Source: Chloroflexus aggregans DSM 9485 (GTDB taxonomy: Bacteria; Chloroflexota; Chloroflexia; Chloroflexales; Chloroflexaceae). Taken from it: DNA of 64,000 bases. Location: assembly GCF_000021945.1 (NCBI RefSeq), contig NC_011831.1:4229353-4293352 (forward strand), in the 5' to 3' direction. Position 1 is the first letter of the stretch; each line of letters starts with the position of its first letter. A model generated the notes under the pieces. It was not told where the DNA came from, ran no database searches, and worked only from the letters and a program-made list of their open reading frames with translations. The position numbers were made by a program, and so were the translations under genes. This document shows positions 35,178-51,530 of the stretch, in pieces.

Positions 35178-35768
35178 ATGAAACGATGGATACGTATCTT
35201 CGCTCCGATGGTAGCGCTGGCGTTAGTGGTGGTGGCTGCGATTGCCGCGTTGGGCAATACCAATGTGCAAGCGCGACGTGCCGATCCGGTATCGGCTGTA
35301 GTCGTAGCTCAGGCACAGCCGCAAGCGCCGACAGTGACCGTTGAGCCGGATGAGGGTAGCGAGACGCCCGACGCCCAGGAAGGGCCGGAGACGCCCGACG
35401 CCCAGGAAGGGCCGGAGACGCCCGACGCCCAGGAAGGGCCGGAGACGCCCGACGCCCAGGAAGGGCCGGAGACGCCCGACGCTGATGAATCGGCTGAAGC
35501 GGCTGCCTTAGCAAGCAAAGTCGCGATTAGCGAGCAACAGGCGGTTGCCACAGCATTGGCTGCTAATCCCGGCGCGACGATGGTCAAGGTCTCGTTGGAC
35601 GATGAAAACGGGGTGATCGTCTACAGTGTCGAGTTGGACAACGGCACCGATGTGAAAGTTGATGCGATTACCGGACAGATCACCTCTGTTGATCAGGCGG
35701 GTGCAGAGGAAGAAGGGAACGATGTCGAGCATGTTGATGAAACGCCCACCGTTTCCGTTCAGCCATAA
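35178..35768 (+). CDS. Membrane-anchored or secreted PepSY-domain protein with ETPDAQEGP repeats
   Basis: A 196-residue protein. Residues 1-35 are a signal or anchor segment (MKRWIRIFAPMVALALVVV). An acidic linker with four perfect copies of a nine-residue repeat (ETPDAQEGP type) follows. The C-terminal PepSY domain reads ISEQQAVATALAANPGATMVKVSL, then GVIVYSVELDNGTDVKVDAITGQITS. PepSY domains are thought to inhibit peptidases or sense extracytoplasmic conditions. AAGGAGG lies at good distance before the ATG. The exact DNA repeats imply recent slippage, so linker length may vary between strains. Confidence 0.82.
   Translation: MKRWIRIFAPMVALALVVVAAIAALGNTNVQARRADPVSAVVVAQAQPQAPTVTVEPDEGSETPDAQEGPETPDAQEGPETPDAQEGPETPDAQEGPETPDADESAEAAALASKVAISEQQAVATALAANPGATMVKVSLDDENGVIVYSVELDNGTDVKVDAITGQITSVDQAGAEEEGNDVEHVDETPTVSVQP
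35361..35481 (+). repeat. 27-bp tandem repeat inside the PepSY gene
   Basis: Four full identical 27-base units (starting 35361, 35388, 35415 and 35442) and a 13-base partial fifth. The unit is a multiple of three, so copy-number change keeps the frame and alters only the linker length. Confidence 0.93.
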
Positions 35769-45588: not shown

Positions 45589-45695
45589 AAGTTGCCTCGT
45601 GATCATGTGTTTGTGAATAATGGACTTGCCGGTGTTGGCAAGCCATTGCGCGCGGCGCTATCCCGTGATCCGTGCGCACCGCCGCTCCTCTCCGC

Positions 45696-45908
45696 TTGTC
45701 ATTGCGCGCCGCCGAAGGCGGCAACGCAATCTCCCACGAGTACGGGAGCGGCCCCTTTCCGCCGAAGGAGAAGATTAATGCGGGGAAGGGCACACTGCAA
45801 CCAGGACGCCTACGCGCCCGCGCAACGACAGAAACTCATCCCGTACAGCATTTGTAGGCGCTGCAGCGGGAGATTGCTTCGGGCGCTAGCGCGCCCGCGT
45901 AATGACAA
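45696..45908. repeat. Inverted-repeat element in the phnL-phnM gap
   Basis: A unit at 45696-45736 (TTGTCATTGCGCG... to ...GCAATCTCCCA) and its inverted counterpart at 45866-45908 (GCGGGAGATTGC... to ...TAATGACAA) face each other 213 bases apart end to end. They enclose about 130 bases with no gene. This is the form of a small non-autonomous element or paired dispersed repeat. Similar GGGAGATTGC...GCAATGACAA repeats are widespread in bacteria. Confidence 0.6.
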
Positions 45909-45937
45909 ACGCCCCCCCTCGCAATCGTACTCACACT

Positions 45938-49688: not shown

Positions 49689-50315
49689 TCAGATGACCTC
49701 AATCTGCGTCGTGCGCGGCAACCCCAAGCACCGTCCCTGCTGATCGATCAGAAACAGATCGATCCCCAGCGGAAACCGACTTGGCCGTGATGCAATAGCG
49801 GCCAGCTCGGTCGGAGCCACGCCGCGCAAACCAACCGTGGCCGTCGTAGCAATCCCCGGCCCGCGCAGACGCAGCGTTTCACCGTTGAGTACAATCGCCG
49901 GTACGCTGAGAAAGACGGTGCAACTGCGTTCGGGGTAGAGCAACGATCCCGCCGCGAGTTCATCAAACAGCGCCGTCCCGGCTGGGTCGTGCAAGAGTGC
50001 AAAATCAGCGGTAGAAGGCTCTGCTGGGCGAGCGTTAGTGCGCAGGGCGATCCAGCGCGTCAGCGGATGATCGACCGGCAACCATTCTTCACCGGCGGCA
50101 TGGACGAAGCTTACCGTCTGGTCGAGCAGGCTCATACCGGCGGCAACGGCGGTTACATTGGGGAGCGTGCCGTCCGGCAGCGGCGGCAGATCGGCGAAGG
50201 TCGGCGGCGGCAAGTGGCTCACCTTACCGGGGCGGGCTAAGCAATCGAGCAGTACGCGGAAGGTAAGGCCGTTAAAGCGTTCGATCGGCGCGGGTGGTAT
50301 AGCGACGGTAGTCAT
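49689..50315 (-). CDS. phnH: C-P lyase core subunit PhnH
   Basis: A 208-residue structural subunit of the PhnGHIJ complex with a PLP-transferase-like fold but no cofactor lysine role. The N-terminal NGLTFRVLLDCLARPGKVSHLP matches the family motif FR.lL.alarPG. The C-terminal half has GPGIATTATVGLRGV and SRFPLGIDLFLIDQQGRCLGLPRTTQIEV, the latter close to the family ending. It follows phnG in the order expected for phnGHIJKL, but about 800 bases of repeat DNA separate the two. Confidence 0.94.
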   Translation of the reverse strand: MTTVAIPPAPIERFNGLTFRVLLDCLARPGKVSHLPPPTFADLPPLPDGTLPNVTAVAAGMSLLDQTVSFVHAAGEEWLPVDHPLTRWIALRTNARPAEPSTADFALLHDPAGTALFDELAAGSLLYPERSCTVFLSVPAIVLNGETLRLRGPGIATTATVGLRGVAPTELAAIASRPSRFPLGIDLFLIDQQGRCLGLPRTTQIEVI

Positions 50316-51110
50316 AGGGTATCCTCAGTAGATTATATGTCATCAGGAGCGCGAGGAGCACGGGCCGCCAGCCCGCAGCGTACACGAGTTGGGATGGGAA
50401 TGAACCCCATCCCCGGCTCCACCCACCGCTGGTGAAGGGGGTACCGTCGAGGACGTTGAGGGTAAACCCTATCCCCAAACCCTTTGTGCCCTCTGCGTCC
50501 TTGGCGTTGCCGGTCGCCCGTTCGTACCGGTTACGGGCGTTTCGCAATCCCAAAACCCTTTGCACCCTCTGTGTCCTTGTCCTTGGCGTTTAATGGTAAG
50601 GTTTTTGATGCCTGGGTAGTTCCAGAGATTCCCAAACCCTTTGCGCCCTCTGCGTCCTTGGCGTTGCCGGTCGCCCGTTCGTACCGGTTACGGGCGTTTC
50701 GCAATCCCAAAACCCTTTGCGCCCTCTGCGTCCTTGTCCTTGGCGTTTAATGGTAAGGTTTTTGATGCCTGGGTAGTTCCAGAGATTCCCAAACCCTTTG
50801 CGCCCTTTGCGTCCTTGGCGTTGCCGGTCGCCCGTTCGTACCGGTTACAGGCGTTTCGCAATCCCAAAACCCTTTGCGCCCTTTGCGTCCTTGGCGTTGC
50901 CGGTCGCCAGTCCGTACCGGTTACAGGCGTTTCGCAATCCCAAAACCCTTTGCGCCCTCTGCGTCCTTGGCGTCTTTGCGTGTGAATCCTCTGCGCCTTG
51001 GCTCGCTTTGCGCCTTTGTGTTCGGCCCTCGTTCCCAGCCCCTCCCCCGCTAGGGGAAGGGGTGAGATGAGTGTGCCTTTTACGTCTTTTCGTGGCTATT
51101 CGTCTCCCGT
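50316..51110. other. Repeat-filled gap between phnG and phnH
   Basis: Nearly 800 bases with no supported gene in the middle of the C-P lyase operon. Most is the tandem array listed next. The phnH-proximal flank (50316-50470) and the phnG-proximal flank (50974-51110, with CCCCTCCCCCGCTAGGGGAAGG near 51040) show further low-complexity sequence. Apparent open frames here encode only the repeat (PKPFAPSASLALPVARSYR type) and are not credible genes. Confidence 0.8.
50474..50973. repeat. Higher-order tandem repeat array with a 157-bp period
   Basis: Seven copies of a unit starting CCCAAA(A)CCCTTTGCGCCCT alternate with two different spacers. One contains GCCGGTCGCCCGTTCGTACC; the other contains GGTAAGGTTTTTGATGCC. 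The combined block repeats exactly every 157 bases (starts 50474, 50631 and 50788) with few changes, then decays into a single-spacer form. The near-identity of the copies points to recent amplification. Confidence 0.93.
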
Positions 51111-51530
51111 TCAAAACGTCTCAAACTCCACCCGCGTCGCTGCGGCGGCGGCAAAACGTCGTTCATAAGCGGCGCTCAGCGCCTGCCCTAGCTCGGCGAT
51201 GCGCGGGCGCAAATCGGCGTGCGGATCACCCGGCATGCGCAGCGCCGCGTCGAGTACGGCCAACGCTGTCGCGTGATCCGGGTCGCGCCCGATCACCATC
51301 CCAAACCCAAACTGACCGGCCAATTCCAACCGCGTCTCGGTGACGAGAATCTCGCCGCCGTTGAAGACCGTTTCGGCGACGCCCTCGATCATGCGCAACT
51401 GTACCAGCACGCAGCGCGGGCCGCTGATGAATGTCACAGCATCGCGGTCATACCGCGCGAGTACCTGCTCGGCCAACGCGCAGACGAGGTGGGGCGGACT
51501 GCAACTCAGAATATGCGAGGTCGTGAGCAT
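51111..51530 (-). CDS. phnG: C-P lyase core subunit PhnG
   Basis: A 139-residue subunit of the PhnGHIJ complex. Family residues are visible: VQLRMIEGVAETVFNGGEILVTETRLELAG followed by GFGMVIGRDPDHATALAVLDAAL. The C-terminal part is helical (PRIAELGQALSAAYERRFAAAAA). It begins 40 bases after phnE2, so transporter and lyase genes share one transcript, at least up to the repeat array that follows it. The nearest ATG has GGAG upstream. Confidence 0.93.
   Translation of the reverse strand: MLTTSHILSCSPPHLVCALAEQVLARYDRDAVTFISGPRCVLVQLRMIEGVAETVFNGGEILVTETRLELAGQFGFGMVIGRDPDHATALAVLDAALRMPGDPHADLRPRIAELGQALSAAYERRFAAAAATRVEFETF

Follow-up and report, generated by a model that had tools for sequence, protein, structure and literature searches.

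A tandem array of dispersed-core repeats between phnG and phnH in Chloroflexus aggregans as a probable tolerated repeat island of recent expansion

A repeat island lies between phnG and phnH

We analysed a window of 64,000 nucleotides from Chloroflexus aggregans DSM 9485 (bases 4229353–4293352 of a genome assembled as a single contig of 4,684,931 bp). A phn (C-P lyase) operon runs along the minus strand of the window, and Pfam searches identified PhnG, PhnH, PhnI, PhnJ and ABC ATPases together with an amidohydrolase in the PhnM position and a phosphonate-binding protein. The open frames of PhnG and PhnH are intact, and PhnG has a single match in the genome. A first-pass annotation of this DNA had placed a repeat array between phnG and phnH. 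Both genes were confirmed by Pfam, and the interval 50316–51110 is exactly the gap between them (Table 1).

Two further repeats were observed in the window. The gap between phnL and phnM (45607–45937) holds two copies of another small repeat, GTCATTGCG...AATCTCCC, in opposite orientation, so that repeats have enlarged another junction of the operon as well. A perfect 27-bp tandem repeat of 4.5 copies (35361–35482) may lie in a coding frame since its period is a multiple of 3.

Table 1. Features of the phnG–phnH region, in window coordinates. The core strand (CTTTGCG) of the array is antisense to the phn operon.
Feature	Position	Strand	Evidence or remark
phnH	49689–50315	-	Pfam PF05845, 3.4e-36
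phnG–phnH gap, 795 bp, repeat island	50316–51110		6–21 bp in four relatives
phnH leader, TATAAT-like box and GAGGA, outside the array	50316–50345	-	sequence; no promoter called
Gap segment common to C. islandicus (80% identity), predates the array	50321–50440		alignment
Tandem array A B A B A A + partial	50474–50973	+	core strand antisense to operon
Monomer A1, 76 bp, core + spacer A	50474–50549	+	monomer alignment
Monomer B1, 81 bp, core with 6-bp internal duplication + spacer B	50550–50630	+	monomer alignment
Monomer A2, 99% identity to A1	50631–50706	+	monomer alignment
Monomer B2, 98% identity to B1	50707–50787	+	monomer alignment
Monomer A3, 97% identity to A2	50788–50863	+	monomer alignment
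Monomer A4, 96% identity to A3, 93% to A2	50864–50939	+	monomer alignment
Partial last monomer, core alone	50940–50973	+	Tandem Repeats Finder, monomer alignment
Gap segment common to C. islandicus (91%) and G001 (90%), predates the array	51077–51110		alignment
phnG	51111–51530	-	Pfam PF06754, 1.2e-22

The array is built from two monomers that share a core

Tandem Repeats Finder detected a period of 157 bp at 50474–50893 (2.7 copies, 97% matches, no indels) with nested periods of 76 and 81 bp spanning 50471–50973, while an ungapped repeat search placed copies starting at 50471, 50628 and 50785 and another start 76 bp further. Alignment of the monomers resolves the array into the order A B A B A A followed by a partial copy, with A measuring 76 bp, B 81 bp and the A+B pair 157 bp. 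The array had been described as three units with a period of 157; the period and the near identity of the copies (97–98% mutually) hold, but the third block is not a full unit and the array proceeds there with a 76-bp step. The 25-base core consensus is matched six times in the window, compared to zero times in 100 shuffles (up to 3 mismatches). As in minisatellites and satellites, the copies stand head to tail and the unit is longer than about 10 bp. The repeat number is six and a part if 76/81-bp monomers are counted, or 2.7 for the 157-bp period, set against a satellite threshold of at least 4 in passages of PMC6749651.

Near-identical short tandem units are error-prone in assembly. We nevertheless think it very unlikely that the array is an assembly artefact, given that the monomers can be told apart, the array spans only ~500 bp within a single-contig genome, and the same gap carries a different duplication in another assembly.

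The spacers are private to the locus whereas the core is dispersed

A BLAST search of the whole genome with the 157-bp unit, suggested earlier as a check on copy number, gave matches at the phn locus of 98%, 100%, 95% (115/157 bases) and 92% (116/157); elsewhere only core-sized matches were returned, with the exception of one 70% match at 143439–143557. The core is multicopy, with 88 matches across the C. aggregans genome and none for a reversed control (up to 3 mismatches). In searches allowing 3 mismatches, spacer A occurs four times and spacer B twice in the genome, all within the phn array, and neither was matched in seven other Chloroflexus genomes. Because a transposing unit would have brought its spacers along, these private spacers indicate local duplication. 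For the small core family the idea of a neutral invader may hold, but the 157-bp block, with its private spacers, does not match it. We give almost no credence to the arrival of the whole block as a mobile unit and its subsequent multiplication at the locus: the dispersal of the core over the genome would be in keeping with this, but both spacers are restricted to the phn array in eight Chloroflexus genomes and other arrays carry different ones. Nor does the block occur as one unit at several sites, as a MITE or REPIN does; it is the core alone that is found in many places.

Matches to the 18-mer core are mostly intergenic, with 24 of 280 falling in coding calls (made with a simple codon-usage model, not taken from annotation) that cover 77% of the 336 kb read. 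Core-containing arrays with periods of at least 60 bp were present at 24 loci, a count for regions that were selected for core presence and not an unbiased rate; their units differ, and several have nested periods. The phn array is thus ordinary, since the same copying has taken place at about two dozen other places in the genome. Across 80 relatives, high counts of the 18-base core were confined to C. aggregans (57), C. islandicus (34) and G005 (16). Head-to-head core pairs were found at 11 sites in the C. aggregans genome and tail-to-tail pairs at one, the two counts being made with slightly different degenerate patterns. Genome G000 has core-containing arrays at 3057898–3059197, 2389522–2390569 and 2646176–2647485 that are far larger than the phn array; the periods of these larger arrays are 98, 210 and 311 bp, and many contain a palindrome of the type GGGGCACGGC...GCCGTGCCCC.

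The gap probably predates the split from C. islandicus and the array probably follows it

The coding ends of phnG and phnH, excluding the stop codon, are 6–21 bp apart in four relatives (G003, G004, G006 and G024), and the junction reads TGA-ACT-ATG in two of them. This nearly seamless arrangement upholds the view that the two genes are normally adjacent. The gap is 437 bp in G001 and ~850 bp in C. islandicus (G007), as compared to 795 bp in C. aggregans. We take G007 to be C. islandicus because its motif positions coincide with those of G088, to which the named locus L089 belongs. In these two, which are the nearest relatives, it is filled with other small repeats, and in C. islandicus (locus L040) it contains a separate tandem duplication of such repeats (295 bp × 2.1, 95% identity). 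The 157-bp array was not found in the C. islandicus gap (one genome per species compared).

Both ends of the C. aggregans gap align with that of C. islandicus at 80–91% identity, and the middle is wholly different in content. It follows that the gap itself is older than the split between the two species, while the array, being absent from C. islandicus, is younger. The 157-bp units are 98% identical to each other, whereas identity between the species is 93–95% for phnG and phnH DNA and 80–91% for the shared gap DNA; this fits a recent expansion. The claim that amplification was recent is thus supported by the identity of the units and by the restriction of the array to one species.

The array adds no detectable promoter or terminator to the operon

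The first-pass annotation had suggested that the array might insulate transcription or supply an internal promoter. Neither role is supported by the results: a search for sigma-70-type promoters gave none in the array or the gap, no terminator was detected in the array (the only site resembling one is within phnG), and the 157-bp unit folds no better than shuffled sequence (z -0.38). The alternative suggestion, that the operon tolerates the array, agrees with the intact state of phnG and phnH around it.

Several other candidate functions were tried and rejected. A structured RNA was discarded because the four Rfam matches are at noise level (E 0.08–0.49, all under the gathering scores) and the unit has the unremarkable fold score given above. 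Plus-strand reading frames cross parts of the array (for example 50641–50985) but oppose the operon, and the frame shifts from unit to unit because neither 157 nor 76 is divisible by 3. A pseudoknot-like pairing in spacer A (CCGGT/ACCGG interleaved with CGCCCGT/ACGGGCG) is not maintained, since its second stem is mismatched in A3 and A4.

It is also conceivable that the gap, as distinct from the array, is functional, either uncoupling phnH from phnG by means of a new transcription or translation start or tuning the PhnG:PhnH ratio. In the gapless relatives only a few bases separate the phnG stop from the phnH start, and the phnH leader of the three gap-bearing species has a partly conserved TATAAT-like box and GAG(G/A) before the ATG. 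The whole gap is also somewhat more stably folded than 20 shuffles, albeit weakly so (z -1.99). The leader features are outside the array, however, and the promoter search made no call on them; the repeated unit does not share the folding signal, the middle contents differ entirely between species, and similar arrays occur at many unrelated loci. On balance we regard a functional gap as unlikely, and as far as sequence features can indicate, the phnH leader is the one feature that appears worth testing for function.

The mRNA strand of the array has a YC content of 0.070, compared to 0.126–0.150 in phnI and phnH, and placing this purine-rich, YC-poor strand in the message should limit Rho-dependent polarity. 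At 24 of 32 codirectional gaps in C. aggregans (24:8; p = 0.007) the core strand runs antisense to the genes on both sides, and a weak bias of the same kind is seen in C. islandicus (11 of 15; 11:4; p = 0.12). A general rule of antisense orientation was rejected, as the bias, seen in Chloroflexus, did not recur in a Bacteroidota bin (6:7) or Nostocales (7:14). The bias was spotted post hoc and sites in the two Chloroflexus species may be shared by descent, for which reasons we put forward Rho-based tolerance as a suggestion.

A model for the origin of the array

We consider it probable (at about 0.8) that the phn array is a tolerated repeat island, recently expanded, in which local DNA was duplicated around copies of a dispersed core (CTTTGCGYCYTYTGCGTCCTTGGCG). 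We infer the following route and order of events. Small dispersed intergenic repeats would have entered a near-seamless phnG–phnH junction before C. aggregans and C. islandicus separated, one of them being the core of degenerate 9-bp phrases, CTTTGCGYC CTYTGCGTC CTTGGCG. In C. aggregans, three closely placed cores would then have come to flank two unrelated spacers of ~40 bp each. Exchange or slippage between the outer cores, 157 bp apart, would duplicate the A+B pair, while exchange between neighbouring cores would duplicate A alone, and together these two steps would explain why the monomers succeed one another as A B A B A A. The alternation of two spacers, which had been thought unusual for slippage, thus calls for no particular explanation; an A+B pair results when the outer of three homologous cores, with different spacers between them, exchange. 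Replication slippage would give the same pattern as recombination between cores. Lying between intact genes and adding no detectable promoter or terminator, the array would have been tolerated and is presumably neutral.

The phn array is genuine, of recent origin and specific to its species, and it adds one more case to a known kind. A survey of bacterial satellites, PMC6749651, has C. aurantiacus with 76 satellites as the first bacterium in its table, and on the strength of that entry tandem arrays in Chloroflexus are known in kind; C. aggregans is not mentioned in the passages of the survey on which we draw. Like the satellites described in those passages, the phn array is tandem, intergenic and made of long units, but the many C. 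aggregans arrays differ from them in sharing one dispersed core while keeping private spacers. The same passages name Leptospira interrogans as the only bacterium with transposed families of non-coding long repeats. The phn array demonstrates that two genes for a single enzyme complex can come to be separated by ~800 bp of repeat DNA inside a bacterial operon, and it offers a simple account of how higher-order arrays originate where dispersed repeats flank private spacers.

Matches to the core beyond Chloroflexus

The cross-phylum core merits more attention than the phn array itself, and the importance of the core family, which is matched over 25 exact bases in about nine phyla, would grow if horizontal spread were established. 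The exact 25-base core was found in 54 stretches of a genome collection (loci L053–L106), mostly from Nostocales, against a chance expectation of ~0.007 in 257 Gb, estimated for equal base frequencies. Other hosts are Bacteroidota, a Pyrinomonadaceae (Acidobacteriota), Lentisphaerota, Beta- and Gammaproteobacteria, Verrucomicrobiota, other Chloroflexota, a Desulfovibrio, in which the match may be a coding coincidence, and a Cloacimonadota bin; many of the core-bearing genomes are metagenome bins, so that faulty binning could account for some of the matches. In one Bacteroidota bin the 18-base core is present in 87 copies, many closely spaced. A phage origin was also considered, and this shorter core is present in 108 stretches among 2.9 million viral contigs. 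A search of the open-licence literature with core-type strings and the string of one other repeat found no paper, which is not proof that the family is undescribed.

Like REP/REPIN elements and MITEs, the core is short, multicopy and mostly intergenic, and its head-to-head inverted copies are enriched in C. aggregans and occur near several of the copies in other phyla; it differs from them in being built of 9-bp phrases. Elements of the REP and MITE types have a transposase or RAYT partner, a defined terminal inverted repeat and a target duplication; of defined ends, the core shows a GTT edge in other phyla. We offer as a tentative and somewhat doubtful proposal that the core is a homologous, mobile, hairpin-capable element of 9-bp phrases (CTTTGCGYC...CTTGGCGGTT) that has spread across phyla by an undescribed mechanism, and that in C. 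aggregans, C. islandicus and the Bacteroidota bin it has multiplied to dozens of copies and serves as a homology seed from which intergenic DNA becomes satellite arrays. The trinucleotide GTT, outside the searched pattern, follows the core in 33 of 38 cases from cyanobacteria and in 7 of 15 from other groups. At 7 of 16 non-cyanobacterial loci, at least two inverted phrases occur within 80 bp upstream, as compared to ~1% of random stretches. Copies in other phyla often have a GGTT edge and an inverted partner (L053–L106; genome G091).
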